A stretch of 64,000 nucleotides of DNA from Allacma fusca (taxonomy: Eukaryota > Arthropoda > Collembola > Symphypleona > Sminthuridae), in assembly GCA_947179485.1 (NCBI GenBank), contig OX359246.1:7564001-7628000 (forward strand), written 5' to 3'. Of this stretch, positions 1 to 54,249 are shown in pieces. Every line of letters begins with the position of its first letter. Within the stretch, counting starts at the first letter, position 1. The notes under the pieces are model-generated. The model did no database searches. It was not told the origin of the DNA and saw only the letters and a program-made list of their open reading frames with translations. A program made the position numbers and the translations under genes.

Positions 1-2498
1 ATAATACGTTTGATGGAACCTAAATAAGTTTCCATAGGAAAGGCACTGAAGTTGTCGAGGGCTCCGTACATTTTTGCATCTTCAGCTAGATGTATTAAAT
101 AATGAAAATTATATACTTGAGCCTCTGGTCCGTAAAGTCTTTCGCAGTGTTTCACAAATGCTATTAAGAATTCCTTTGCGAGACTGTACCGCGTGTAATG
201 TTCCGAAAGAAACATTCGTATTGCCACACTTAATAATAAAACGTTATCATAAACAGACTTTTTTTAGAATTTCCTTAAGTACAACTGGTCCCATGTATAA
301 TAAAAATTGTCTTGCCTCCGTAGCTTTCCAACGCTCACAAATTCCAACACCTCTCGGAGTTCTGTCCGATGTGATATTTTTAACGCATCCTTTCAGATCG
401 CAGGAAAGTCGTGTCACGGTATTTGCCGGGAGCCTGGTCTTGAGTGGTCCCTTTAACCACAGTGAGATCAACTTTCGGACTCATACTTGCAGTTTTGGCC
501 CAAAGTTCAAATTCAGTTCCATTCACATCCCCAAATTTTTCGTGCCGTTCAGTTAAGTTCAGTTCCCCTTGTCCAAAGCCTGTCGTAGTTCAGTTCAATT
601 CACGTCGTACTTTCCAGTCGTTACGTTCAGTTCAGTTCACCCTTGCAGTATTTTTTTAAAGTTCAATTCAATTCATTATATACTTTTCGGTCGTTCAGTT
701 CAGTTCGCCTTATCTGTCATTAGCAAGCCAATTAGTTCAAGTCATTTATGATATATTTAAGTGACATTTAGTTTGATTTTTATAACTGACTTGGAACTTT
801 GTCTAAAAAACTATTTTTGGCTAAATGGTTGATTAAATTACTGCTTTCGAAACACTGGAGTTGTGAAAGCAGTATTAATTTTGAGCTTTCTGGTAAGCAA
901 GTTAATAAATCATGTAAATGTGCTTACAATTATTGCGTGTTTTAATTCATACGATCTCGCCCGAAATATGCCAAATAAATGAGTTATTCAATACGTGTAA
1001 GAAACCAGCTTGTTTATAATTAACTATTTTTTTGATTTGTAATTTAAGGTCATTCAAATTATTAGTCAAAAGCCAGCGTGTTAGCTTTTGAGATTATAAC
1101 TATAAAATACATATATGGTCATGCAGTTTATAGAAACATCGTTGATATTCGTGTTGCGTTCACGAATATAAATGTTTATATTCAAACCTGGACTCTTAAG
1201 TTCAATTCAGTTCAGTTTGTGTTACTTGAACGTACGATGAACGTTCGTTCACATTCATAATAAGTTCTGCTGAGTTCAGTTCAAATTCGTTCAATCATAA
1301 TTTTGCATTTAACTAGTTCGTTCAAGTTCATTCTAAAACCTTGAAAATAAGGGCTAGTTCAGTTCAGTTCACCACTTTATGAACTGAACGGCTGCAAGTA
1401 TGTTCGGACTACTCCAAGGCATACCAAATGCATGTAGTCCAACGGAAACTGCGTAACCATTCCAACTCCTACTCTTTCGAATGGGCTTGGTTGTGTCAAA
1501 AATTCGTATATGTGGTGCTCTTCTTGATCTCTATGTTTAAAATTTGAGTTGGTTCGTAATGGTGCAGTTACCTCTGTAAAATGGAGTCGATGCGAAACAT
1601 ATTTCCCTTCCGTCATACATTTTTCACATGAAAAATAGCCGGTGTGAGATTTAATTCCCTTGATGAAGGATCGAGCTGGGGCGTCTAAAATAAAAATGCA
1701 TTTATTGATAATAAATTGGTAGTTTGTGTTTTCAAACACAATGCCAAACTTCACTAGGTCATCTAACTCTTCGCAAAATTTTGAAAGATATGCATTTTAG
1801 TCTTTCGGCTTTGAATTCCCAGCAAACACAGCGATCGGGAACGGGGTTTGGTGCTTGGATTCATTAAGTATGCCAATAATAGGCCAAAAGCACTGCGACG
1901 AATTTCTAAAGAGTGGCAGCCCATCTATGCTGAAGCGGCAGGTGAGTTCTGGTTCGCTGGAATTAATTCCTAATTGCAATTGCTGAACAATTCCAGTTTT
2001 TATTCCGAAATAATACATTTCTCCCCCAGGAATTTTCATAATGTTGGAGCTTCTGACTGTTTCCAGTAAACGTCTTGCCGTTTTGGGAAGGCTGGGAATT
2101 AGTTTTCTAATAATTTTCAGGAGCTGATCAATAGCTTTGTGAGTAACATTCTCAGTTACTGCCCAAATACGCAACTCTTCTTGAATGCATCCTACAGATT
2201 TATTGGTTTCAAATTCTTCGAAGTTACCGGCGTCCGCTTCTATATTAACGATATCTCCACTATATGCTTGAACATTTGGATACAAATCATACGAATTATT
2301 ACCACTGCACTTTAAATTTGAGACCATTGTAACACCAGATGTTTCAAAATTGCTTGATAAATCTTGAGAAGTTGAAGTTGAGGAGAGGTTCGAGTTCAAT
2401 TGAAGATGGATTTCACATTGTTTGAGCCGTTTCAAATCTCGGTCAACGGCAGATTTAATTTGCCTTCGGAACTGACGCTTACAAGCCTTTTTGTACAT
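1..2498 (-). pseudogene. CACTA/TNP2-like transposase gene, interrupted, C-terminus off the left edge
   Basis: Reading leftward from an ATG at 2498, a basic N-terminus (Lys/Arg-rich, about residues 1-30) is followed by a conserved DDE-type transposase body: LPKTARRLL, IDGLPLF, GNSKPK, then DAPARSFIKG, GYFSCEKC, FPLDYMHLVCLGV, ERWKATE and FRQFLLY-like blocks. The same body continues near the left edge with DNFSAFP and runs off the window. Three lesions are visible: an in-frame TAA at 1797-1799, a 921-bp insertion at 482-1402, and a frameshift within the A-run near 255-270. Across the insertion the frame rejoins exactly when one copy of the 8-bp duplication is dropped. The motif order matches a transposase family common in invertebrate genomes. 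Placing it with TNP2/Transposase_21 (CACTA) rests on recall of the FPLDYMH-type block and is less certain than the call of transposase. Not functional as it stands. Confidence 0.8.
482..1402. mobile_element. Motif-array element 1 (GTTCAGTTCA family), nested in the transposase gene
   Basis: It is flanked by a perfect 8-bp duplication TTCGGACT (474-481 and 1403-1410) and has 11-bp terminal inverted repeats CATACTTGCAG. The sub-terminal parts (about 505-720 and 1195-1385) are dense in GTTCAGTTCA and GTTCAATTCA repeats, while the middle is AT-rich and non-coding. An 8-bp duplication is the hallmark of hAT-type insertion. Removing the element and one duplicate restores the host transposase frame, which confirms the boundaries. 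Confidence 0.85.
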
Positions 2499-2744
2499 TA
2501 CTCACCGTAGTAGTTTTTATCACAAAACCAGAGATTATTGCAAACAAAATATTCCCCTGTGTTTTCTGTATTAATAATCTTACCTTTCAAATTATCCAAT
2601 CCTCACGTTAGCATTGACGTTGTGAAGTCAAAATGAGTTGATTATAGTTCCATTGGGGAGTATGCGGAAATCAAAGCGGTGGAGCTTTGGCTGGATTTAG
2701 ACGTTACTGAAATGTCTTTAAGGCTGGTCATTGAGCCGTCGGAC

Positions 2745-10515: not shown

Positions 10516-10942
10516 TAGGGCTTCTACTGGGGACACTTGTTTTGACAAAAAAGTTCGTTCCGATTCAATCCCGAAATACCATGGGGACAAAAATTTGGTC
10601 CCGAAACTGTCCCGATCCCGTTCCGAAAACCTCGTCCCGTCCCGAATTATTATCCCAGTCTTAAAAAATGCTCCAAATTCCACTATTTCTATAAGAATAC
10701 CTCCAATAATAGCGAAAGTTTACTTTAAAAAGTATTCACATATACAACAATTTTAAACGGAACGATTCCCATACATATTCATTTTTACAGCAATTGTATA
10801 CTGTACAGGTATTTTTTTCTGTCCCGATCTATTGTTCCGTCCCGTCCCGAAATCTTTGGGGGAAAAAGTTCGTCCCGATTCATTCCCGAAATAACATGGG
10901 GACAAAAATGTTGTCCCGATCCCGACCGGAACAGAAGCCATA
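10516..10942. mobile_element. Motif-array element 4 (GTCCCGA subfamily)
   Basis: It is flanked by CTACTCGA (10508-10515) and CTACTGGA (10943-10950), 7 of 8 identical. The inverted ends share TA(G/T)GGCTTCT. Two clusters of GTCCCGA, ATTCCCGAAAT and CATGGGGACAAAAAT lie near the ends around an AT-rich middle. It is a shorter, diverged relative of the element at 20711-21567. Apparent reading frames across it are shadows of the GTCCC array. Confidence 0.75.
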
Positions 10943-11165
10943 CTACTGGAAGCTCAATAGAGCGTACAATATTAAGGAATTATAATCTAAAATTGCTTAA
11001 TATTGTACGATCTATTGAGCTTCCAGTAGATTGGCAGCAGGTGGTGTATAGCCGAGAAACACAGCGAGCTGAAACTCTGTCGCAGAGGAGAGCTTTTTCT
11101 TTTCAGCTCGCTCAGCTCGCTGTGGTTCTCGGCCTCGGCTTGCTTGCTGTATATACCACCTGTTT
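10943..11165. repeat. Two consecutive long inverted repeats
   Basis: The first hairpin has arms 10943-10976 and 10996-11029: CTACTGGAAGCTCAATAG pairs with CTATTGAGCTTCCAGTAG, followed by a pairing GTACAATATTAAG segment. The second has arms at about 11040-11074 and 11101-11161: CCGAGAAACACAGCGAGCTG against CAGCTCGCTGTGGTTCTCGG, with GGTGGTGTATA/TATATACCACC outside. The open frame at 10993-11190 is a by-product. Confidence 0.7.
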
Positions 11166-13149: not shown

Positions 13150-13825
13150 GTTTACGAAATTTTATATTTTCCACATCTAAATAGTACATCTTACGCTTGC
13201 ATACCTACATCATCTGGTTGTAAATATTGTAATCATTTGCTGACTGATGTGATTCGAAATGTACTAACAAGACTCGTACGAAATCACTGTACTCTCTGAA
13301 ACTTGCAAATCTTGGGTAGCATGTACGGAACCATTCCTTTGCTTTCGGGTCAGTCATTTACCGGATTTATCGGATCACCATGCTCATGCATTCTAGGCTT
13401 GTTGTAGTCCTAGGAATGACAAAAATGTGCTTTTATTGTACTGCATGGTGTGGTAAATGTATCCCATTGTTATCTTTGTAGTAGTTTGAGTCCGGTTCTG
13501 TAGTAAATTACTTAAAATGTCAACATTTTTGCACAAATCAGGAATGATTTGTGAACAAACTGAATTGGCTCTTACGCATTCCGCACTCATCTTTTTGGTT
13601 TTGCTGTACTTCAAAGCAGACATAGTTGCGCACTGCGATTTATTTACAAACAAACTAATATCTGCGCAGAAATAGCAGCGATTGTAAAGGTTAGCCAAAC
13701 CCACAATAGTTTGCCATCTATGACATCTATACAAATTATTTAAAAGAGACATTGCTCGTGCCTATGACAGTATACAAACCCCGCCTTGACATGGTTTGTC
13801 ACGTAGTAAAATTCTTAAAAAATTT
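13150..13825 (-). pseudogene. Decayed 3' part of an ionotropic receptor gene, inverted
   Basis: On the minus strand from about 13825: YYVT-like, KAGFIYCH-like and the first membrane segment (WLTFTIAAISAQILV in one frame), then, after loss of the pore and second membrane segment, IPDLCKNVD and YNKSTFLSF. These align with IHDLCKNAD and YKKKALFDI of the gene at 31372. Further along, LQPDD is still visible near 13215. Frameshifts and the missing pore region mark it as dead. It points opposite to the 5' fragment at 12476, so the two are not one simple gene. Confidence 0.75.
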
Positions 13826-13829
13826 TTTA

Positions 13830-14690
13830 AACCACTATGTAATTAATTAGACCTATTGATTTTTCGTAAACTTAACAATAAAATTTTCTAAAACTGTATG
13901 GATTCGATTATATCAAAATGCTCCGGAAAAAACGCTGATCGACCAACAACAGTGTACATGTTTCTTTTAACATCACCAATACGCTAAAAATGCCCAAAAT
14001 ACCCGGGAACTGCCAGACTAGAGCATCTTAAGTGCAATTTCAGGTGGGTAGGCATTCATAAAACACATGACATTTTCATTTGAGTAACCCTGGTTATACT
14101 TATGTACATCATAGGGCAAATCTCAATAGTCCAGTTTATGCGTATGTATAAGTGATTAAATATGGAGTGAATATATCATATCGACAACATACATACAGAT
14201 GCGCTATGATGGAGGGATTACTTTTTGGGGAATTTTGTTGAAGGATGCAAAAATATGTACGTAAAAACTTGAATTTCATTGAAATAGCGAAAATCAAAAT
14301 TTCATCGACTTTCAAAAACTCAAAATCCTTATGGGATTTAACATTAACTTTTTTTGAAAAGACAGGTGGTATCGTTTTAAATTTTGAAACTTTGGTGACG
14401 TGTCCTAGGAGAACGGGGCAAAATGCACTCGAGTTACATGAGTTTTGAAATATACTAGGTGAGTACTAAAACATGTGCTATGCTTTGTTTGAATCGGCTT
14501 GTACCATCCCAAAACGTTACCTTGTTAGGGATACGAAATCGGATAAGCAAATTCAGGAAAGTGAACATCCCATGCTCACTCTTCCAATGCTATTCGTAAA
14601 TTAACATGTTCGACAGGGTAATCTGCAATGTGCCCACTGATGCCCTGAGCAGTGTCCCATAACTTTGGTTGTGGGACCCCCTAAAATACA
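13830..14690. other. Intergenic DNA, nothing recognised
   Basis: AT-rich. Short open frames start on non-ATG or isolated codons and show no domain. Confidence 0.4.
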
Positions 14691-16676: not shown

Positions 16677-16990
16677 AATAAATCGGAATAAATGGACAGA
16701 TTCTAAATTCATCTTAAAAGAGCCAATGCCATTGTTAACCACATTCATAAGACGAAATGGAAACATCGGATTAAATGGGCAGATTCTAAATTCATCTTAA
16801 AAGAGCCAATGCCATTTTTAACCATATTCAGAAGACGAAATTGAAACATCGGATTAAATGGTCAGATTCTAAATTCGCCTTAAAAGAGCCAATGCCATTT
16901 TTAACCATATTCAGAAGACGAAATTGAAACATCGGAATAAATGGTCAGATTCTAAATTCATCTTAAAAGAGCCAATGCCATTTTTGAGAG
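16677..16990 (+). repeat. Tandem repeat, four units of 83 bp
   Basis: The anchor AGATTCTAAATTC starts at 16698, 16781, 16864 and 16947, an exact 83-bp spacing. Each unit continues with TTAAAAGAGCCAATGCCAT and ends with a GACGAAAT(T/G)GAAACATCGG segment. Units differ by a few substitutions. Comparable positions of other DR-1 copies lack the array, so it expanded locally. Confidence 0.9.
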
Positions 16991-18280: not shown

Positions 18281-19523
18281 TTTTGAAATTGCCGTTTTTC
18301 CTTGGACGAGTCTAATATGGCATCTTTCAAAGTCTAAAATTCTTCGCGTGGGAACCCAAAATTTAGGAAATAATGGTACAAAAAAATGTAAGGCAAATGT
18401 TCTATGCACTGATTTACATCAATTCATAAACCTTTACCTCGCAATTTGACGACAAGTTTTTATTTCAGAAGATGATATTAGACTCAAAAGAATCCCTTAA
18501 AAATTTGCATCAGCCACAAAAATTTGTTTGATATTTTATTTGTGGGAATATTTTTCGGAACGAACGTTCAAACACAAGTACCAAAATCTGAAATTCGGCT
18601 ATTTCATAATCTATGGCCCTGAAGATTAAATTTTCCAACGTTGCCCTTTGTTCTTACGAATTATGCCCACAATTTTCAGGTAGACTTGATTAATAGCTCT
18701 TTCGTAAGACAATACAATTTCGTACAACTCTCTACTAAATACTGTTTTGAAAAACATTTTTAATTTGAGTCAGTAAACTAAAACCTTTGTTAGTACCACA
18801 TTTTTTCAAAACTTATAACCGTCACGTTTTATTCTCGTACGTTATACATTGTTACCTTTCTCAACGCAGCAATAATCGGATCAACTCTTCTGGGAATGGA
18901 ATTTCGTCAAAAATTTGGCATTCTGCAGAATACTTTGCAACAAAATCAAACTGCTGAACAAGACTAATGACTTGGTTAATTTTAAGAAACCCGAAATTGA
19001 ATTGTTTTTTAATTTGTCAAAATATAAGGAAAAGAAAGTCTGGATTCGACAATGGATAGAGAATTAGCTTTCTGGTAGGGTCCTCAACAGCTACTGATCA
19101 TACAATTCAAAAACTATAAGCAAGAAAAAATGGCTAGAGAGACAAAATTGAGCTTCCAGTACAATCTGGGGTCACACCCAAAAGTACACACAAAGTAAGA
19201 CAAACTCCATGAGATTCGGTCACTGGTGTTAGTAAACACTCAAGTGCACCTTTACATTATCTCTAAGGTACTTCATAACAGGAACATAAACAACAACACT
19301 ATAGGCCATATCATTGGGATATTCCAGCATTATTGGACAACTGAAGAGTGTCTTCTGGATGAACCAATATGGTGACTGGCTTCACTAAAATGTATATAAT
19401 CTACTTCAATGTTACTGATTTCGCAGGAGAATAAACACACTTAATTTGGGGAAATGCTGTATAGACTAGAGTATAGCATAAAAGTCGCTACACCGCCCTT
19501 CATTGTCGTACTAGTCGTATACT

Positions 19524-20674
19524 CAGGGTTGGCCAATTGAAAATGCCATGGCATTTTGGGCATTTTGCCTGCCGAAAATGCCCGGGCATTTTGGGCATTT
19601 TCAATTCATGGCATTTTCGGCATTTTTGGCATAATCCGCGTAGGGCAGGCATTTTGGGCATATTCAATCATTTCTTGGGATACTTCTGCCTGGCCCCTTT
19701 CTATTATTTTTTCAGCGAGGTAAATTTGGATACATTTTTTGTTCGAATCAATGCAAATTTCTTTACAAATGCATACCTAAAATTTCAATATTGTAGCGTG
19801 TCGCGTGTCTTGATTCACTATACTAACATTTGTATTATCATTATATTAAATCTCATTCCATTTTCTTAATTTTCACTTGAGATTTAATCAGGATACCTCT
19901 AATCAATGAAAATATTCAGCTTCATTGGTCAGACATCGGTGAAAATAAAATGTTGTGTAATTACTTTCATAACAAGCAGTTGGATTATACCATGAAGTGG
20001 CGTGCTCGCATGCAAGTTTAAAAGCCCAAGTGGAGGTAAAATGGGAATTATCCAAATTTATTACCAAAACGGGTATTGCTCTGGACATCGATGTGACCAA
20101 AGAAATCGATTTAAGCTCACAAGAATCAGCGTTGGTGAAATAATTCCCAACAAAGCCAGAACCGAGTTCATCAAAACAAATTAGACATGATTATCATGTG
20201 TATGAAATATCACTGCATTCCCTGAATTGGAAAAAAATATTTTAGATGACGAAAGTTATAGTTTTACTTTTCACGAGTTCGAAGGTGAGTTGATGTTGAG
20301 GATATTGTTGAATTAGATTAACATTGCACAGGGGAAGAAACGATGTAGGAATACTAATAGTTTACAAATTGCGAAGCTTTAGATTAATTCATTCTGTAAA
20401 ATGTATATTTTTAAATGAAGTTTGACATTTAAAACAATCTGGTCTGTAAAAAAGAGCGGTGCGGTAAATAATGATTATTTACAAAAAAAATCTAAAATGC
20501 CCAAAATGCCTGCCGAAAATGCCCAAAATGCCGGGCATTTTGAAAGTAGGGCATTTTCGGCATTTTCAGGGCATTTTTGGCATTTTCAGGGCATTTTTGG
20601 CATTTTTGGCATTTTCAGGGCATTTTTAAGCGGGCAGGCATAAAACCGAGGGCATTTTCATTTGGCCAACCCTG
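19524..20674. mobile_element. Motif-array element 5 (GGGCATTTT family)
   Basis: A perfect 8-bp duplication CGTATACT (19516-19523 and 20675-20682) flanks inverted ends that match at 23 of 24 positions, beginning CAGGGTTGGCCAA. About 130 bp at the left and 170 bp at the right are almost entirely GGGCATTTT, GGCATTTT and their complements AAAATGCCC. The core (about 19660-20490) is AT-rich without a transposase. Ends and duplication size are typical of hAT elements. Confidence 0.92.
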
Positions 20675-20710
20675 CGTATACTACAACTATTTATATACTG
20701 ACATACAATT

Positions 20711-21567
20711 CAGAGCTTATGTTGGGGACAAAATTCTTGTCCCGTCCCCGTCCCGTCCCGTCCCGATATTTTTTCAAAACCTTTGTCCCCAGTCCCGTCC
20801 CGACAATCGGGACACGGTGACAAAAACCATGTCCCCGTCCCGTCCCCAAAAAATTATAAAAACGTTGTCCCCGGTCCCGTCCCGAAAGTCGGGACATCGG
20901 GACAAAAAACTTGTCCCCGTCCCGTCCCCAAAATTTTAAAAAACGTTGTCCCCGGTCCCGTCCCCAAAATTAAAAAAAAATATTGTCCCCGGTCCCGAAA
21001 ATCGTGGCATGTGAACAAAATTCCTGTACCGTCCCGATAATTACTGAAAACAGTTGTCGACATTCTCATACCGAAAATCGGAACATGAGGAAAATTTCGT
21101 ACAAAAAATATTTGTACCAAAACCATAAAAAACACATACATAGAATCGTGGCTCCAAGATTCTTCCTTAACTTTTTGAGGAACAAGCCTCATTTTCTACA
21201 ACCTAAAATCGAATGTCTTACATTCGGTGAAATAGTGTTCACAGAATAGTTTACTCATGAGCATTAAAGCTGAAACGTTATCTTTGTTCTGCTATGCTTG
21301 CTAGTCCCGTCCCGTTATACACACAACCAAAAAGCGTGTCCCGTCCCGAATATAATGGGGACAATTGTTTTTGTCCCCGTCCTGTCCCGAATATAGTGGG
21401 GTCAATTTGTTTTGTCCCCGTCCCGTCCCTGATATAATGGGGACATTTTTTTTGTCCCCGTCCCGTCCCGAATACGACATGGGGACAATTATTTTGTCCC
21501 CGGGGACGTCCCGTCCCGGTCCGCCGAGTGTCCCGACGTCCCGTCCCCGTCCCCGGCAGAAGCTCTG
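20711..21567. mobile_element. Motif-array element 6 (GTCCCGTCCC family)
   Basis: A perfect 8-bp duplication ATACAATT (20703-20710 and 21568-21575) flanks inverted ends beginning CAGAGCTT(A/C)TG. Most of the element is a stuttering array of GTCCCCGTCCCGTCCC separated by short A-rich spacers. All C-rich runs lie on the plus strand in both arms. Overlapping open frames in several registers are artefacts of the array. It lies only 36 bp from element 5, both inside DR-1 copy b. Confidence 0.92.
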
Positions 21568-21575
21568 ATACAATT

Positions 21576-28649: not shown

Positions 28650-30860
28650 GTCTAGGCGTCAGACATCGTGTAGCCCGGTGGGGACCAATGACATCCTGTT
28701 TTTGGGCTGGACGTTCGTCAAGACTTGGATGAACAATAATCATTAGTATTATATACTGTAATTTGTTAATATAATAATTGACTAACTTGACTGAGATATC
28801 ATCGCTGAGAGTAATTCAAAACTACTTAAAAGGTAGATTTTGATCAATGTAGTTGAAATTGTTGTGATCCAATTTATCCATAAATTTACGTACATATATT
28901 TTTGTTGTTGTTTAAGTTGTTACCGGTGTTTCGTAGTTTCGCACGCATTTGTTGAAATAGTGTCTTTAATTCATCCTCACAATTAAACAAATGCTAAGTT
29001 TTGTAATTTCAAAAATACTTACCCAGTGTTTATGTGCAATTTGTTTTCAATCGTATCATAATATTTCTGCACAATGCTAATACATTACAATGTGATGGGT
29101 ATGAAAAATCAGTAGTCGTAATAACTGCACATTTTCTAATCCTCGGTTTGGGATTTCACTCGAGAAAACCAGCAATCAAAATCTGATCAGCAGTTATTAT
29201 TCTTTTCGTTACCGTTTTTAAAAGAAGCTAATTTTTTGTATTAATTGTGCGAATAAAAGTAGAAATAGTACGAGCGGATTCACACTATGAATTTCTTTGA
29301 AATTGCATTGTCACAGAATCTATACAACGGGATACACAGATCAAGCATACACATTCCTGTCTAAGAAATGCTTTCATTATTACCCTAATTACTTTACTTC
29401 CTCTGTTCCTTGGCAGGGGTCGGATTTTTGTGGGAAGACGGGAAGATTCTTCCCAGGGAAAACATTTTCCATGCAGGGATAATCTCAAAGGGAAGGGATT
29501 TTATTTTGCGAACAGGGATTTTCAAATTCGTTAATCTTTTTTTGGGCAGGGATTTTCAAATTTGTTGACGTGTTTCAGGGATATTTGTTAGGCAAACAGG
29601 GATTTTTAGATAATTTGACCTTGTTTGACAGGGATTTGATGACTTGCAGGGAAAATGTTTTTTCCAACAGGGATTTTGAAAATCGTTGACCTTTTTTTCA
29701 GCAGGGATTTTCGAAATTGTTGAGCACCTCCCAGCAGGGACATTTGAATCAGCAGGGAAATTCAGAAAAAGTCTTCCAGGGAGATTTACAAAAATCCGAC
29801 CCCTGGTCCTTGGTGTCCTGTCACACGACTCTGACTCACAATAAGGTGATACCCATCACCATCCCTTGTCCATTGAAAATATCTCATAGTTAAGTAACTT
29901 ATAAATGTATGTTTCTCCAATCTGCGTAAGATCATCAATGCCACCGAGAGAACGACAGTAAATTCATAAACTCGTCGGAGATCAGTTGCACAAGTTCTCA
30001 TAGACACTGGACTCTAGATTTAGGACAGGCCTTGAATTTTCTTGTCTTCAAGTTACAATACATCATGAAAGGCTTCTATTTAAGAAGTCCTATTCCTTAA
30101 GCTTGGGCCCAAGAGAGAAATCCCGGGGAATCGTGCTTCTCATTTTTATCTATTTTGCTCATGCACGCATAGGAACCTTGCTGTCCTCTAGCACGCTGGT
30201 ACAGTAACGCCGGCACAAGTAGAAGTCCCATGGTAGTAAATATTGTTCCTTTAAAATTTATATACCGTGTGGTCATTGGTCTAAAGTAGACTCGGAATTT
30301 AAAATATAACTAGATTTCGTGACGAAGTTTTTTAGCAGTTAGCGTGAAGATTTCTTGAATATATTTTGAAAATTATAATGTAGAATAAATTTGTTTCGAG
30401 CTTGCTACATCCCATACTATACAAATACTCCGCAGGAATATGAAAAAACCCAACAGATTTAGGTATCCTGCAAATGATGATGTAACTTAATTATCCCCCG
30501 TGTGAATTCCTTCAAAAAACGTTTCCCTACAAGGTCTTTTTCTACAGAAATATGGGATGCGCTCTTGAAGAAAGAGTTCATTTCGTTTTCAAGCAAATCG
30601 TTTTCCAGACTTCTCAAAATTTGTTTCATTGAAACAGGTTACCACTTGTGGTAATATTCGTCAGGAACGTAAAGAAAAATATGGTTTGATTTGGATTTTT
30701 AATTTTTTAAAATTTAAAATTTTGTTTTTTAACCGAATTTATTTCTAGAATATGTTTTCACGCTGGGTTGTAGGACAATTTTGAATATGGTCACGATATA
30801 GATCAGCGAACAAATTATTAAACACTTCGTCAAAACGTTGTCTAGTAATTTGAAAATCAT
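28650..30860 (+). repeat. Dispersed repeat DR-1, copy c
   Basis: Blocks B to H appear in the usual order: GACGTTCGTCAAGACTTGGA at 28710, AATCAGTAGTCGTAATAACTG near 29110, and CAATGCCACCGAGAGAACGACAG near 29936. A GTGGTCATTGG segment near 30270 and the CGCTGGGTTGTAGGACAATTTTG block near 30765 follow. It carries element 7 as an insertion. Confidence 0.7.
29414..29805. mobile_element. Motif-array element 7 (CAGGGATTTT family)
   Basis: This 392-bp element has perfect 18-bp inverted ends CAGGGGTCGGATTTTTGT and flanking TTCCTTGG / GTCCTTGG (7 of 8). The interior is about a dozen copies of CAGGGATTTT(C/T) with TTTGTTGAC-like spacers, all on the plus strand. In the paralogous DR-1 copy b the region reads GGTTCCTTGGCGTCC (15710-15724) without the insert, which confirms the insertion site. 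Confidence 0.92.
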
Positions 30861-31371
30861 GCTGGCTTGTAGGCCAATTAAATACCTTTGCAATAAGGTA
30901 TTTTTCGTATAAAATGTGTGGTCAAAACTGCAATTTTATTAAAAATAATTACTTAGGGGAAAATTTACAACACCAGTCAGCATGAATTTATCAAACACAT
31001 TTACGCAGTTATGTATTCAAAAAAATGGTCCGAGAGGTTGCCCTTATCGACCGTTATTTGACTTTATTTAAGGTTCATGTTAAATATCATGTTTCCACAC
31101 GTGTTGACAACATTTTATGAAACCAAATTCTCATACCCGTGTTTTCCCGTTTTGTGTACATTCGTGATGCGATTATTTGATTTAGCTGTTGAACTTGTTT
31201 TATTTTATAAGCAATAAGCATGAATCAGCTAAAAGTAAATGCATCATTTTTCCAATCGTTGTAAATCGGCTCTCCTTACATCAAGCATACAAGTTGCCAA
31301 TTCCTCAGATAAATTTTCCTACAACCCAGACATCAATTTGATCTACTGATTATTATATATAACTAGAAATT

Positions 31372-33408
31372 ATGGAACTGGGAGAAGTAATGGATCACGT
31401 GTCGCATTGTGACAACTACAAGTTTATAGATAAACCTCGAACGTCTGACAGTCAATTTGAAGAGATGGAATGGTATGCTTGGAATCAAATTAATAACAGA
31501 TTAAATCCATCTTATACTTTCTACAAATCCAATTTAACTTCAAGATCTGTCAGAAAGCATTCCAAAAACTGTAGAAGCATGTACGTAATGAGCACCAGAG
31601 TACCTCTCGTACTCCATTACCTGGTAGCTTCAGTAGTTACCTCGAATTATCTGGCATCATCTGAATACAACGAATTGTATATTTTTCTGCTAAATGCGTC
31701 TCCACAGTCAGTCCAAAATAAAGTATTCTCAAAGATGATGATATATCTGAACCCCCGGTTATTCTTGCTTCAACTTCATTTCATTTTCCAGTTACCAGGC
31801 CGAACCAACATAACGGTCACACCTCACAAACAATTACAGTTGCAAACACAGTTATATATCTCCAACAGCCCGTACAGTCTTGTGCTCGTCACATTTGATT
31901 ATTTTCGAATTTTACTTCAAAATCCGCAAAAATCGCTTAACAAAATAACGAATTTCTGGGGCAACAAAATTTGCTGGGCATACCAAAACTGGCCAACGAA
32001 TTACATTCTTAGACTGCATAAGCAAGTCAGGAGAACAAATTTACGGCACAGTTGTTTGGATGATTCGACGGTATGCGGCCGTTTGTATTCATTGTTTTCC
32101 CTGCTAATAACTGACACCATAATTAAAACTGTCAACGCTTCGTTAAACACGAACCACGATAGGAAATGTAGTGTAGTTAGGGGTGGCCTGGAAACTGGCC
32201 TAAACATTGTTAACTTTAATCCAATATTCGCAACTACGATAACGACCGCTGAGCAGATTAAAGTAAAATTGATGTCGCGATACTACGTGACAGAAAATAT
32301 CAAGGCGGGATTTATATATTGTCATAAGCACGAGCAGGATCTAGCACTTAAGTTATTTGTCTGGATGACACCAATGGATTCACTAACGTGGATTTGGCTG
32401 TCATTTACGATCACTGTTATTTCCATGCAGATTGTAGTGTCAAAATGTTACACATTTAAACCAAACAATTCTCAAAGCTCGTTCATGTATGCTTTCATAC
32501 CGAGCAAGCCGTTATTTGTCGTCACCAATTTTTGTGAACAAATTCACGGGTTCACATCATTGCTCGTGTTTCAATACCCGTCATATTTCACAAATCCTGG
32601 TTGTCTCATAGTTTTATTTATGCTTAGCTGCATTGTGTTAAGCAATGGTTATAGCAGCTTCATAGTAAGTTCAATTACAAAGCCACTACCAGAGAAAATC
32701 ATGAAAACGTATGAAGAGTTGTCGAGAGATCACCAGGTTTTAGTAAGTCCGGGTGCTTGTCTCACGGAAAAGACTCGACTAAGTGTGTTTGCGTATCATC
32801 CAGTGATACACGACTTGTGTAAAAATGCCGACTACAAAACTTATGGTTTACAACAGTACCACAATTCTACTACACAGATGAAAGTGAAAGATCTTTATAG
32901 TACCATGAAATACAAGAAAAAAGCACTTTTTGACATAATTCCTAGTCCCATTACACAACTAGATTTCATGAGACTCAGCATCAAAGAAGCCATAAATGAT
33001 TGTCACCAAAGCGAAGGAATCGTTCCATATATATTTCCAAAGGGTTGGGAGTTCCAAAATCCTAAAGCTGACACGCTTATGAATGTTTTGAATACTTTGA
33101 TATCCACCGGAATATATAATGAACGAGCGTTGTTACTGACATTCCAAGTATCGACGGTCACTAAACGATTACAGTATTTGCAACCAGATGATGGTATGAA
33201 TACGTTGTATTCTTTAAGGGATGTATTTGGATTATTTTTATTACTTCTGTTTATATGCATACTTGCTCTGGTACTGGAAGTATTGTATGTACGCTTTACG
33301 AGCTACCGGGAGCAACATTTTAATTTCGGTATTATTTGTGAGAAAGTCAATTGCGTTCGTTTAAGATGTCTGAATACGCTTTATAGAAATTGTTTTAGAA
33401 AGCAATAA
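31372..33408 (+). CDS. Divergent ionotropic receptor (IR family)
   Basis: An intronless 678-residue membrane protein with the layout of an insect-type ionotropic receptor. A first membrane helix lies at about 338-360 (after MTPMDSLTW). A re-entrant pore and second helix occupy about 396-432 (PSYFTNPGCLIVLFMLSCIVL). An S2 ligand-binding lobe spans about 440-615, and a last helix about 619-643 (FGLFLLLLFICILALVLEVL) precedes a short cytoplasmic tail. The family forms ligand-gated cation channels in chemosensory neurons. A hydrophobic stretch at about residues 68-92 could be a signal segment, so translation might also start at Met64 or Met67. The ATG at 31372 is preferred because two decayed relatives conserve the segment after it. 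The ligand is unknown, and S1 is too divergent for me to place binding residues. Confidence 0.85.
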   Translation: MELGEVMDHVSHCDNYKFIDKPRTSDSQFEEMEWYAWNQINNRLNPSYTFYKSNLTSRSVRKHSKNCRSMYVMSTRVPLVLHYLVASVVTSNYLASSEYNELYIFLLNASPQSVQNKVFSKMMIYLNPRLFLLQLHFIFQLPGRTNITVTPHKQLQLQTQLYISNSPYSLVLVTFDYFRILLQNPQKSLNKITNFWGNKICWAYQNWPTNYILRLHKQVRRTNLRHSCLDDSTVCGRLYSLFSLLITDTIIKTVNASLNTNHDRKCSVVRGGLETGLNIVNFNPIFATTITTAEQIKVKLMSRYYVTENIKAGFIYCHKHEQDLALKLFVWMTPMDSLTWIWLSFTITVISMQIVVSKCYTFKPNNSQSSFMYAFIPSKPLFVVTNFCEQIHGFTSLLVFQYPSYFTNPGCLIVLFMLSCIVLSNGYSSFIVSSITKPLPEKIMKTYEELSRDHQVLVSPGACLTEKTRLSVFAYHPVIHDLCKNADYKTYGLQQYHNSTTQMKVKDLYSTMKYKKKALFDIIPSPITQLDFMRLSIKEAINDCHQSEGIVPYIFPKGWEFQNPKADTLMNVLNTLISTGIYNERALLLTFQVSTVTKRLQYLQPDDGMNTLYSLRDVFGLFLLLLFICILALVLEVLYVRFTSYREQHFNFGIICEKVNCVRLRCLNTLYRNCFRKQ

Positions 33409-35834: not shown

Positions 35835-36425
35835 GAACATTGTAGTGAAGGGTGGAATAAAAGTTGACCTAGAAATTATGGGCTTTAATAATGTTTTTAA
35901 AGCTACAATTAGGACCAAGGAGATTAAATTAACAATATTGTACACAATAATAGACAAATCATGTCATGAGCTCGTGCAAAGTCTAGCACTTAATATATTT
36001 GTATAAATGACACCAATGGATTCAATAACGTGGGTTTAGATATCATTTACCATTTATGTTCTGTCCTCGCAGATTGTTTTGTCAAAGGTTTGTACATTCA
36101 AGCCCAGAATTTATGAAAACGTGTTGAGGACTGCTTTCAAATCGAACCATTTGTAATATATTATCACAAAGTTTTGTGAACAACTTCACGGCTTCACATC
36201 ATTGTAATTGTTACAATACTCATCATATTTCACAAATCCCAGTCATCTCGTAATTGTATTTATGCTTTGTTGCATTGTGCTTAACAATTATTATAGCGGT
36301 TTTATAGTAAATTCAATTACAAAGCCGCGACCAGAGAAAACCATGAAAACCTATGAAGAGTTGTCGAGAGATCATCAAGTTTTAATAAGACCAGGTCATC
36401 ATCTATTGGAAAAAACTCGACAAAG
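35835..36425 (+). pseudogene. Ionotropic receptor pseudogene, pore region
   Basis: It corresponds to about codons 260-470 of the gene at 31372. The MTPMDSITWV segment is followed by a TAG, and later YSSYFTNPSHLVIVFMLCCIVL and ITKPRPEKTMKTYEELSRDH are well preserved. Several stops and small indels occur. Similarity breaks abruptly after EKTRQS at about 36425, where a retrotransposon fragment on the other strand begins. Confidence 0.85.
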
Positions 36426-36780
36426 TTGCCTACTTAAACTCATTGCAGTTTCTGCAACGGCTATTTCCTTGGCTATATCCGGGGTTGGTTTTTACTGGCA
36501 AAACATTTGCAGCCATTTTAATTGCATTCGTCCATTCCGATGTTGAAAGGCCGGCTTTGCTTTTTATCCATTTATTGGCAGCTGTGTGTTCGGAGTATTG
36601 AATGACGCCTTGTCCTTTAGTAGGAAGTTTACACCATTTTTCGTATTCTAAACGTTCGAGTTCATTTCGTATTAGTTTACATGTCTTAATTTGTTTAGTG
36701 ACAGTTGTTTGAGATTCTGTAGATGGCAATGGGAGCGATGAAACATCCAATCTATTACTGGAGGGAACGTACTTACGCAC
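36426..36780 (-). mobile_element. Fragment of a non-LTR retrotransposon polyprotein
   Basis: The minus-strand frame contains EHTAANKWIKSK, SEWTNAIKMAANVLPVK and a Cys cluster CRNCNE, arranged as in the region after the reverse transcriptase palm of R2-like and related site-specific LINEs. It is cut off right after CRNCNEFK at the junction with the IR pseudogene. The family assignment is from recall of the motif pattern and is moderate. It is unrelated to the LINE at 24354. Confidence 0.55.
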
Positions 36781-37377: not shown

Positions 37378-37563
37378 GTGCGGGGGTTTTTGTAAATTTT
37401 TGGGGACGAGACGGGGACAACGTTTTTATAAATTTTTGGGGACGGGACGGAGACATGGTTTCTGTCACAGTGTCCCGATTGTCGGAACGGGACTGGGGAC
37501 AAAGGTTTTTAAAAAATACCGGGACGGGGACGGGACAAGGAATTTGTCCCCAACAGAAGCTTT
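37378..37563 (-). mobile_element. Truncated GTCCC-family element
   Basis: The minus strand reads GTTGGGGACAAA, then GTCCCGTCCCCGTCCC and further GTCCC runs. One end (AAAGCTTCTGTTGGGGAC) matches the terminus of element 6; the other end is missing. It is embedded in a TACCCG-rich stretch (37330-37700). Confidence 0.65.
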
Positions 37564-38163: not shown

Positions 38164-39003
38164 TAGTGCTGTCCATGGGAACGGAAATTTGGTACCCATA
38201 CCTGTTCCTGTACCTGTACCCATTTTTTCAGGAACTAAAGCAATGGTCCTGTTCCTGTTCCCATAAAAATGGGTACCAATTCAAAGTTCCGGGACCTGCT
38301 CCTGCAGGAACAGGAATGTTCCTGTTCCCAAAAGTACCTACTTAAAGACAAGCAGAAAAATGAAAGTACAATTGACTAACACATATATGCCCCAGGTAAC
38401 TCAATTTATGAGGCTTTAAAAAACCAAATATCAATTCGACGCTATTAAAAATAAATAACAGCACGCCATCTCCAATACTTTTAGCTATTCGAATTTAAAT
38501 GATAATTCAGTAACAGTCACTAAATTAATTATCGCAGCGCAAAGTACAGTAGTAAATGAAATTAGCTATGACAAGTAGCACCTTCATTATACTTTTGCTG
38601 AACTAATAAGGAAAAGAGCACACTGGAGTTTTCTGAGCTACAATTTTGGGTTATTCCAGAGAATTCCATTTTTGCCACGTGTTAAAGAAATTTTATTATA
38701 ATTTATTATTTTGTTAAATAATGACGTGTGAAAGAGTGACTTATTTAATATGTTATGACGTACTTTTAAAATTATATTTTGTTTGTGAGGAATTTTATAT
38801 TATAAACTTCATGTAAATACCAGGTAGGTACAAGTTTTGTTCCTGTTCCCAAACCCGCTTTTGTTCCCACATTTCGGGAACAATTTCTATGTTCCCAAAC
38901 GTTCTCAAAGTGTTTTGGGAACAAAATTTGTGTTCCCGTACGCACCCATTCCTGTTCCTGTTCCCAAAAACCTGGGTGTCTCCTGTTCCCATGGACAGCA
39001 CTA
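38164..39003. mobile_element. Motif-array element 8 (GTTCCTGTTCCC family)
   Basis: A perfect 8-bp duplication GTACAGCA (38156-38163 and 39004-39011) flanks perfect 19-bp inverted ends TAGTGCTGTCCATGGGAAC. Both arms (38185-38340 and 38820-38990) are stacks of GTTCCTGTTCCC, GTACCCAT and GGGAACA. The core is AT-rich and non-coding. Diverged fragments of the same family occur at 53890-54095 and 59763-59985. Confidence 0.93.
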
Positions 39004-51880: not shown

Positions 51881-52412
51881 ATTATTACAATTGATTACAC
51901 TTTTACTTTTTCAACCCTTCTGCCCTTCCATGTCTTACTCACAGCAAATAGGAAAAGTCGAGGATGGAAAGAGACAGAACATCATGAAACTGCAAAATGC
52001 TGAAATAAATGTTATGCTGTCAATTCAGACAGAGACTCCAGGGTTGAGGGTAGAAAAGGGCAGATTGTCAAGAAATTGGGATAAATGCTATGCTCTGAAT
52101 CAAAGATGCTAGCCTATCCTACATGTAGGCCTACATGTAGGCCTATTTATAGGGTGCGAGCTATTTGCAGAAAAAATTATAGGCAAAATAGGGTGCACTG
52201 ATTTTCGCAGAAAAAATGCCTATAAAATAGGAATGCACGCCTGCATACACGCGGTCATATAGGCATATATGTAGGCAGCACAAAAACGCGCTTGTATGAA
52301 GGCAAATATGTAGGATGTACATATATACATAACTATTTTCTCATTATGGAATAAGTTATCTCAATGCTAACCAAAACGATTTTTGAACGTTGGCTATGGC
52401 TACGTTGGAATA

Positions 52413-52834
52413 GGGAGCGTTCACAAATGACGTCATCAAATTAGTGGGTGGGTGCTAACGGGAGATGATGATGTTGATGACGCAGTGGTAGGGTGGATTT
52501 GACCAAATGATGATGTCATCAACCGACGAATGTTGCCAACGATTTTTTTGCTTATCCGTTAACAGTTTTGGTAGTTTGATTCAACCTGCTTCGACTTGCT
52601 TACTTGCCGAAAATGCCCAAAATGCCAGTCATTTTCAAATTAAAACATTTTCAGGGCATTTTTAGGTAGGTAGGCATAAAACCCAGGGCATTTTCAATTC
52701 TGCAACCCTGGTGATGATGACGTCATTACATGGGGTGGGTGCGTCGTTTCATCACATGATGATGTCTGATGACAAGTGTGTGACTGGGTGCCTAAAAACC
52801 AGTATTTTGGATGACGTCATTTGTGAACGCTCCC
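52413..52834. mobile_element. Inverted-repeat element GGGAGCGTTCAC..., nested
   Basis: The ends GGGAGCGTTCACAAATGACG are inverted and extend to about 25 bp identical. They are flanked by ATA on both sides (52410-52412, 52835-52837), compatible with a 2-3-bp duplication. The interior is rich in GATGATGACGTCAT-type motifs. The superfamily is not identified; it is not hAT-like by duplication length. Confidence 0.75.
52600..52710. mobile_element. GGGCATTTT-family fragment
   Basis: It has CCGAAAATGCCCAAAATGCC, CAGGGCATTTTTAGG and a right terminus GAAAATGCCC...GGGTTGCAGAATT reading out to GCAACCCTG at 52710, as in element 5. The left terminus was not identified. It sits inside the element at 52413-52834. 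Confidence 0.65.
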
Positions 52835-53889
52835 ATATCAGGCTACTGTAGGGCAGGGGCATGTGAGATTTCCCATTCAAAATAATATCCATACATAACT
52901 AAGTACATATACATCTATTGTATGTGATTGCTCGATGCTTATATACTTACTGAACGTGCAATACGACCAATCAATAGGAGTTTTCACATAATGCATGAGT
53001 AACATTAATTTTGAAGAAGTACTCACAATCAGTTTGTTTAAAAATATGATACATAAGAAAGTAACAAACAATTGTGAGTGTTTGCGGAATAATTGTTGCA
53101 TATGAGAGATAGCCTAATTGTTTTTTAAACTAATCCTATATGTCCATAATAAAGTTGCTAAAATAAAGACAGCAAAATGTAATGAATTTTAATCAAAATA
53201 GAATTTAATTCTACAGTATAGGGTCCCATGTAGGAAGGGGCTAACACTTTCCGTTACCCTATATAGGCAGAAATGTAGGCAATGGCAAATGCCTACTTGT
53301 AGGCAAGGATATAGGCCCAGCAATTGCACAAATAGGCGAGAAGGAAGGCCCCTCCTAAACTGAATGTATAGGTAGGATGTAGGATAGGCAAAATCAGTTT
53401 AGCATCTTTGCTCTGAATTCAAATACAGCCCGCACATATTTAAAAGACATGAAATGGCGAAAGCACATAATGACGATTGAAGATGATGAGGGAAGAGGAG
53501 CATTTTTAAATCTTCGCTCCCTCCTCAACGCGCTTTTTAGGCCTGCGAGTACACAATGCCATAAAGCGCTTTTGCTATAAGTAATGCAATGTACAAGCAC
53601 ACGCTTTGGCTTTAGCTAGAATTGCCGCTCCGCGTCCTCTCCCCTTACATGAAATAGCATACTTCCACCGACGCAGGCGGTGGCTATGCTGCTCGTATAA
53701 TTAATTTTTATTGACACATTTCCTCATTCGACGTGGGATGATCTGTTCAAACAAAGAGCGTTTGCCTCTAAACCACAACAACGACACAAACATAGTCGGT
53801 CCCACCACGACAAAACAAATCAGTCATGTAATTATCGTTATGCTCGCAAGATTCCTCACACAGGTACGCATGAACAGAAACGGGTTTTT

Positions 53890-54095
53890 GAGCATACCGT
53901 TCCCGATCCTGTTGGGTACAGAGATCCCATTCAGCCTGTATTGCACCCGTTCCCATATGCGTTCCTGTTCCCACATACTATAATTGGAAAGGTTGGTTCC
54001 CAAACCTGTACCCACACTTTTGGGAGAAAACATTTTGCACCCATATCATACTCGTTCCCGTTCCTGCACCCAAACACCCGGGTGTGACCCGTTCC
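53890..54095. mobile_element. GTTCC-family fragment
   Basis: CCGTTCCCGATCCTG, GCACCCGTTCCC, TGCGTTCCTGTTCCC and CTCGTTCCCGTTCC recur. It is followed by three direct copies of TTTACTACTG (about 54090-54125). Ends unclear; related to element 8 by motif. Confidence 0.5.
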
Positions 54096-54249
54096 CTACT
54101 GTTTACTACTGTTTACTACTGTTTATAACAAAAAGTGCCACAAAAATGTGTTGCTCTGAAAATTATCAAAGAGCTTTTCTTTTTACTAATCCCATTCGGA
54201 ACACCGATACTATAGTTGGTATTAATTGAATAAGAACTGGTACTGCAGA

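Follow-up and report, generated by a model that had tools for sequence, protein, structure and literature searches.

Positions 19524..21567 of the window—the whole 64,000-nucleotide stretch of Allacma fusca DNA analysed here—hold two adjacent elements, D and E, separated by 36 bp, with arms densely filled by a short repeated word. We consider that these and similar elements in the window are probably non-autonomous (MITE-like) hAT elements, in which the arm word is a subterminal site of the transposase BED domain, repeated head to tail. Subterminal repeats of hAT elements are a known mechanism; the variant features here are the saturation of the arms, the polarity of the motifs, and the escape of arrays.

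In the model that we favor, each family was or is moved by a transposase whose gene lies in a larger hAT element with matching ends. This BED-hAT transposase would bind its own word at many places along the arms, with the N-terminal BED domain as the part that recognizes the motif, and would cut at the terminal inverted repeats (TIRs); gene-less elements that keep the ends and arms could then be moved in trans. Whole-unit slippage would alter array length, selection for mobility would hold the word and let the linkers drift, and an occasional arm would run away to form a long tandem array.

Array-Armed Elements in the Window

Element D (19524..20674, + strand) is a non-coding, hAT-type element with the TIR CAGGGTTGGCCAA at its left end (19524..19536, +) and the right TIR at 20662..20674 (-), which reads TTGGCCAACCCTG on the plus strand. 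It is flanked by a perfect (8/8) target site duplication (TSD), CGTATACT, with the left copy at 19516..19523 and the right copy at 20675-20682, and contains 23 sites of the motif GGCATTTT (17 plus, 6 minus); no Pfam family matched the six frames of its core. Element E (20711..21567, +), likewise non-coding and hAT-type, has the TIR CAGAGCTT, the TSD ATACAATT (8/8; left copy 20703..20710, right copy 21568-21575), and the motif GTCCC(G), with CCGTCCC present 21 times on the plus strand and never on the minus strand.

Comparable elements, all on the plus strand, lie elsewhere in the window: A (482..1402; TIR CATACTTGCAG; motif GTTCA; TSD TTCGGACT), which has the coding relatives L189 and L190; C (10516..10942; TIR TAGGGCTTCTAC/TATGGCTTCTGT; motif GTCCCG), E's distant relative; F (29414..29805; TIR CAGGGGTCGGATTTTTG), with the motif CAGGGA(TTTT) throughout; H (38164..39003; TIR TAGTGCTGTCCATGGGAAC; motif GTTCC(TGTTCCC); TSD GTACAGCA); and J (52101..53410; TIR CAAAGATGCTA; motif (ATG)TAGGC; TSD CTCTGAAT). 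A sequence-only reading had proposed ten elements of one shared architecture with an 8-bp duplication clear in nine. The design is real; the number verified is seven (A, C, D, E, F, H, and J), with TIRs and an 8-bp TSD that matches at 8/8 in five and at 7/8 in two (C and F), the threshold being at least 7/8. The elements were found by a de novo scan for TIRs and 8-bp TSDs, then followed up; since the exact-TSD scan is noisy by itself (16 matches versus 5-14 in 20 shifted controls), they were accepted on TIR, TSD, and arms jointly, plus other copies.

At the limits used, no convincing TSD was found at the array stretches near 2.7, 5.0-5.95, 14.0, 37.3-37.7, 44.3, 51.75-51.87, 52.6-52.7, 53.86-54.1, 58.8, and 59.5 kb; several array stretches of this kind are fragments or nested pieces. 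The window contains a truncated E-family left arm (37387..37561, -) that lacks a 10-bp (two-unit) stretch present in E, a D-family right arm fragment (52605..52710, +) with fewer GGCATTTT units, and diverged right arms of the D family (13987..14092, +) and the H family (53996..54096, +).

The AT-rich core ascribed to all of these elements holds for most of them: the middle is AT-richer than the arms in six of the seven, the exception being J, and F consists of motif copies end to end, with no distinct or real core. Element J shows three-level nesting—it contains a long-inverted-repeat element (GGGAGCGTTCACAAATGACGTCA, ~52413-52834) that itself contains a D-family arm. Separate from the elements described is an array at 16682-16985, in which an 83-bp unit is repeated 3.7 times (94% matches). 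A long open reading frame (ORF) at 31363-33408, with shorter similar pieces at 36208-36546 and 13393-13761, resembles divergent ionotropic receptor genes by eye; none of the three has a Pfam match above the cut-off.

Enrichment and Family Privacy of the Motifs

In each of the seven elements, the count of the top 7-mer lies above the highest value from 200 first-order Markov shuffles: 14 versus 6 in A, 7 versus 5 in C (entered as 10522-10944), 23 versus 7 in D, 21 versus 6 in E (CCGTCCC), 8 versus 6 in F, 10 versus 5 in H, and 9 versus 6 in J. The table of motifs against elements is almost diagonal, with GTTCA found 28 times in A, GGCATTTT 23 times in D, CAGGGA 13 times in F, and TAGG 38 times in J; GTCCC occurs 50 times in E and 12 times in C, and GTTCC occurs 19 times in H, 5 times in C, and 3 times in A. 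The motif had been called private to its family, and privacy is indeed a property of the family, not of the element: GTCCC(G) is common to C and E, distant relatives by their ends and motif, and GGCATTTT appears in J because a D-family arm is nested inside J.

Pattern scans of viral contigs gave 91 GTCCC and 12 GGCATTTT stretches. Motif counts in 103/103, ~700 bases at each of six GTCCC loci, and the placement of motifs at the 12 GGCATTTT loci revealed no likeness to the window elements, and viral contigs were set aside. Three of the viral-contig GGCATTTT loci (L092, L097, and L102; GC 0.28-0.33) hold four or five close copies each.

Genome Copies and Mobility

The genome searched (393 Mb, 91 contigs) contains numerous nearly complete copies of D, H, F, and E. 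The copies fetched were for the most part the highest-ranked in the scored lists, partial or clustered ones being skipped, and are thus the better-preserved ones. Among these, the TSD is perfect in 16 of 19 D copies and at least 7/8 in 17 of 19 (the count is 19, not 20, as L133 was left out, its right TIR not being found), perfect in 14 of 20 H copies and at least 7/8 in 16 of 20, and perfect in 3 of 3 E copies; the three F copies comprise one with 8/8, one with 7/8, and one without an exact TIR pair. The perfect TSDs of the D and H copies differ site by site, and the arrays therefore lie within mobile units.

These copies bear directly on another reading, in which the arrays are independent simple satellites that flank, or were captured by, unrelated elements—the sequence-only reading had named this outcome as its own refutation. 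The window arrays do resemble minisatellites in Tandem Repeats Finder, and in one D copy ~2 kb of an arm consists of an 18-bp unit with 97 exact copies; nevertheless, the arrays stop at TIRs with TSDs in most of the D and H copies counted above, are found at matching positions among members of a family, and recur in coding hAT elements whose ends agree with those of the non-coding ones. The copies with TSDs already refute the satellite origin for D, H, and A, and we give it almost no credence overall.

Assignment to the hAT superfamily is supported by the ends and the target sites. TIRs of hAT elements are short and usually start with CA or TA, and hAT targets favor T at position 2 and A at position 7 (nTnnnnAn). 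The TIRs of the window elements and of the coding elements described below start with CAGGG, CAGAG, CATAC, CAAAG, CAGTC, TAGTG, TAGGG, or TAAGG; among 35 TSDs, T is at position 2 in 18 and A at position 7 in 23, and T is at position 2 in 41/70 of the symmetrised set. The elements combine the 8-bp TSD, the short CA/TA TIRs, and the target preference of the superfamily.

Element A additionally provides an empty site, which together with the TSDs demonstrates mobility. It sits in a minus-strand ORF that looks transposase-like by eye (1377-2501 (-), joined across 482-1402) and has no Pfam match; with A and one TSD removed, one frame stays open ~75 codons beyond the junction, and other stops lie elsewhere in the ORF. 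The ORF split by A would be a second mobile element that served as the landing site. Elsewhere, at ~62.97-63.81 Mb of contig C1 in G000, eight H copies with 91-92% identity share one orientation over a stretch of 0.85 Mb, a pattern more suggestive of a repeated segment than of independent insertions.

A Gene-Carrying Relative of Family A

Matches to the hAT dimerisation domain (PF05699) were scored at 150 of 860 first-look candidates in the genome, with 0 in 14 control genomes, and at 4 of 30 hAT-domain loci (L182-L185) A's exact TIR adjoins the transposase domain. Two complete elements, neither of which we take to be an intact copy, carry A's TIR and arms: L189 (644-5095, 4452 bp, TSD GTTCAAAC/GTTCAAAC) and L190 (637-6876, 6240 bp, TSD ATAGAAAC/ATAGAAAC), the right TIR of each having one mismatch to A's. 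Reading frames of L189 match PF05699 Dimer_Tnp_hAT (3.3e-15) and zf-BED (2.7e-7); the domain scan covers L189, to which L190 is 99.6% and 98% identical over 1362 and 3152 bp. Element A (921 bp) is 75% identical to L189 over the left 318 bp and 82% over the right 256 bp, the cores not matching, and A is therefore a non-coding relative bearing the ends of a BED-hAT element. Short, non-coding, and with the ends of a coding element, it is a MITE in the full sense, an assignment that applies to family A only.

Autonomous hAT elements had been expected for each family. Apart from L189 and L190, a scan for the window TIRs in 59 stretches around 50 hAT-domain places (from the 860 first-look candidates) found no coding partner of D, E/C, F, H, or J, and gave single near-matches to the ends of D, E, and J at 1-2 mismatches; one of six window lineages thus has a coding partner in hand. 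L176 and L212 were tried as coding partners of F and rejected, the F-family ends near their hAT domains being neighbouring F copies.

The coding relative also speaks to the earlier proposal that the non-coding families are array amplifications in which site number drives mobility. Sites are indeed many, and unit number varies among copies, yet A has 28 GTTCA sites against 24 in L189 (both strands, terminal 2 x 280 bp); because the sole coding partner found already has arrays, they did not first accumulate in the non-coding elements. Nor do candidate counts climb with site number in the family comparison (D, E, F, and H), where F, with the most candidates, has the fewest sites—3118 first-look candidates and 13 CAGGGA for F, 1566 and 23 GGCATTTT for D, 920 and 50 GTCCC for E, and 510 and 19 GTTCC for H, a comparison of four families by crude counts of which 40 per family were scored. 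Motif number and copy divergence within a family are not significantly related either (D, rho -0.39, p 0.09; H, rho 0.18, p 0.43), and we regard the amplification proposal as improbable.

Arrays in Other Coding hAT Elements

Across the 30 hAT-domain loci, several of which are copies of one family (L159, L160, L162; L182-L185), a 7-mer occurs at least 6 times in 400 bp on the 3' side in 14/30 and on the 5' side in 0/30. Among 20 further downstream flanks, which may contain arrays of neighbouring elements as at L166, a 7-mer reaches at least 6 copies in 10/20 and at least 7 in 8/20, compared with 2/300 and 0/300 shuffles. Saturation is therefore not universal among hAT flanks.

Coding elements bounded by TIRs and perfect TSDs have words of their own in the terminal 350 bp: TGAAGGA, 12 versus a shuffle maximum of 6, in L163 (3791 bp; TSD CTGGGAGG); CGGATA, 29 versus 10, in L180 (3339 bp; TSD ATTGTACT); and AAGGCA, 11 versus 8, in L166 (3574 bp; TSD GTCTAATG). 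The strongest array flanking L166, of GTCAAGT, was rejected as its own because it lies beyond the L166 TIR; the L166 arms hold AAGGCA. Three loci (L161, L159, and L181) have a right-side motif array and no convincing end pair, and were left out of the polarity count below.

Some side observations concern the same loci. The arms or flanks of L180, L209, and L218 are CGGAT-rich; hAT-derived CGG-binding proteins, in one study, often favor CGG words (PMC8097297). At L176 (G000 C10:56700491-56703712), a hAT gene, inspection by eye shows several copies of a palindrome like GACAAGCTAGCTTGTC that seem to lie between coding parts, and these palindromes may be internal binding sites. Three equal-score hAT dimerisation matches on contig C8 of G000 (28181777, 28191590, and 28201403), spaced by exactly 9813 bp, represent tandem copies of one segment, each with a transposase domain.

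Parallel Orientation of the Motifs

The TIRs are inverted, and the motifs run mostly in the same direction in both arms—a feature that the sequence-only reading missed. With sites counted as plus/minus in the left half or arm and then the right, the window elements give 9/0, 8/1 for AGTTCA in A; 4/0, 6/0 for TCCCGA in C; 7/2, 10/4 for GGCATTTT in D; 12/0, 9/0 for CCGTCCC in E; 6/0, 7/0 for CAGGGA in F; 4/1, 4/0 for CTGTTCC in H; and 7/2, 6/1 for GTAGG in J, where four plus sites are near or in nested insertions. The coding elements give 9/1, 7/0 for AGTTCA in L189; 9/5, 11/4 for CGGATA in L180; 4/1, 5/1 for AAGGCA in L166; and 10/3, 22/1 for GAAGG in L163; a further coding element, L171 (7/8 TSD, 9 of 12 TIR matches), is mixed (AATCGAA 3/2, 5/2; GAATCGA 2/3, 3/1). 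The majority strand is the same in both arms in nine of ten lineages, counting A and L189 as one and C and E as one; if arms were independent, nine-of-nine agreement would have a chance of ~0.002. The agreement in F says little because F has no core, and in single arms the strand bias reaches p < 0.05 in 5 of 14 (A left, E both, F both).

Between the two arms, inverted matches are absent in A and C, limited to the TIR in H and to the TIR plus a 17-bp piece in F, formed by the nested element in J, and made up of several pieces in D and E; direct matches comprise 57 bp at 91% in C and are also present in D, E, and F. As the motifs are mostly parallel, the left and right ends do not mirror each other inward of the TIR, and by analogy with the unequal ends of Hermes we infer that parallel arrays may help the transposase tell left from right.

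The orientation could instead be functionless, a relic of one continuous array that lay between the TIRs at the start and into which a core was inserted, or within which a core decayed, later. Element F, which is a single continuous array, and the direct arm matches just given are what such an origin would leave; on the other hand, coding elements of 3.3-6.2 kb have the same polarity, and so does Hermes if its repeats are read from the tips. In Hermes, STR2-7 of the left end are antisense and STR1-5 of the right end are sense (PMC10368747); the oligonucleotides run from each tip, and we would accordingly read these orientations as one direction through the element. We rate the continuous-array origin as rather unlikely, if far from negligible. 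The same work reports that symmetrised ends lost most activity and that restoring asymmetry in one end gave no rescue (PMC10368747).

A stronger proposal is a polarised address code, in which the private word runs in the same direction through both arms, the inverted TIRs mark the place of the cut, and the parallel arrays mark the family and the left end. This we offer tentatively, as a possibility that we would not yet back: a role for polarity, like transposase binding itself, is suggested by sequence patterns, and on the Hermes analogy neither the polarity nor each repeat is proven to be important.

Motif Conservation and Probable Slippage

In the A/L189 alignment, which has few gaps, identity is 94.8% in motif columns and 73.5% in linkers, and 0/488 circular mask shifts are as extreme (1/488 in the reciprocal test). 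The difference is moderate between C and E, which retain little in common beyond the end and motif (motifs 71.6%, linkers 58.0%; 4/277 shifts), and between D2 and D (93.8% and 77.6%; 5/105 shifts); it is weak or absent in H2, D3, and E/G, the pair of E and its fragment (20/99, 37/100, and 97/166 shifts). Young copies of a MITE family should show no motif excess because copies decay without selection, and a deeper lineage split should show it. The conservation between A and L189 fits transposase-binding sites; concerted evolution of the repeats could also cause motif likeness. The sequence-only reading had suggested a process such as slippage plus selection; the preferential keeping of motifs in the deepest comparison, A/L189, supports the second part.

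Slippage, the first part, also finds support. Arrays gain and lose whole units between copies, and array positions recur within families. Distinct indels of at least 5 bp in D number 12 in 320 bp of arms versus 6 in 815 bp of core (p 0.0008); the D arm indels range from 9 to 29 bp, and every one includes motif sequence. The arm excess is not significant in H, with 9 in 347 bp of arms versus 8 in 505 of core (p 0.33). Substitutions per site are 0.0095 in arms versus 0.0145 in core for D, and 0.0218 versus 0.0452 for H. Slippage is the mutational process to which these unit-sized gains and losses point. The most extended case is the D copy mentioned above (L154, G000 C1 ~53.0183-53.0216 Mb), in which the 18-bp unit fills the left arm near the left TIR; the unit is present once, twice, or not at all in other D copies, and this arm is possibly a satellite at birth.

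If slippage makes the arrays, they might be its by-products, with little or no role in transposition and with the TIRs as the recognized feature. Unit-sized arm indels are common, and extra motif conservation is missing from young pairs, E with its fragment for instance; in addition, a Hermes transposon with mutated inner left-end repeats kept ~70% activity, and the structure shows left-end repeats bound by BED domains and right-end repeats without BED contact (PMC10368747). The contrast of motifs and linkers between A and L189 speaks against this reading, as do the end and motif that C and E share among little else, the same polarity across lineages, and the binding of such repeats by other hAT transposases (PMC3260210 and PMC3143072). 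We consider by-products unlikely, and retain binding sites as the probable role of the arm words.

Comparison with Known Systems

Repeats also occupy the transposon arms of foldback elements (Tetris and Galileo), which belong to a different superfamily, and Tetris supplied building blocks of a satellite. The arms of foldback elements consist of tandem units arranged as long inverted repeats. In contrast, the arrays described here are mostly parallel, with inversion mainly limited to the short TIR, which sets the window elements apart from the foldback class.

Closer parallels come from hAT elements, whose transposases bind short subterminal repeats (PMC10368747, PMC3143072, PMC8097297). Hermes of the house fly, with AAG(T/C) repeats, resembles the elements here in its 8-bp TSD, its many short repeats at both ends, and its unequal ends (PMC10368747); it differs in that its sites are 4 bp, 17 and 14 per end, whereas here words of 5-10 bp fill much of the arm, near-tandem and slipping. 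Herves of the mosquito repeats one motif, CG/AATTCAT, at both ends, as here, and its transposase binds a synthetic direct tetramer of that motif (PMC3143072); the motif is repeated several times per end in a single element described, unlike the saturating arrays here (PMC3143072).

In the maize Ac/Ds system, non-coding derivatives share the TIRs, the 8-bp TSD, and partly the motif AAACGG, which is bound by the transposase, with the coding element (PMC3260210). The motif is tallied there as three or more per element, and site number gives no mobility: 438/486 Ds-l4 elements have at least 3 AAACGG, and no tested Ds-l element excised (PMC3260210). Private words have a precedent in hAT DNA-binding domains, which prefer private 8-mers, with 4/4 motif-giving hAT proteins matching the subterminal regions of their own elements (PMC8097297); that work on hAT-derived CGG-binding proteins is a binding study and does not address array architecture (PMC8097297).

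A literature search limited to titles, abstract starts, and passages found no description of saturated parallel hAT arrays, which is not proof of absence. Within that literature, the features for which no description was found are the saturation of the arms, the parallel polarity, which coding elements share with non-coding ones, and the unit-wise slippage that can run away.

Implications

The word carried in its arms should allow a non-coding family to be matched to the transposase that moves it, at hundreds of candidate hAT loci in one genome, and the parallel polarity offers many natural cases for how hAT transposases distinguish ends with similar TIRs. The run-away D arm illustrates one concrete way in which repeats of a transposon arm can give rise to a new tandem array. 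If the address code is true, slippage would keep the code long and changeable—a code that could co-evolve with the BED domain, split families, and shed private satellites.
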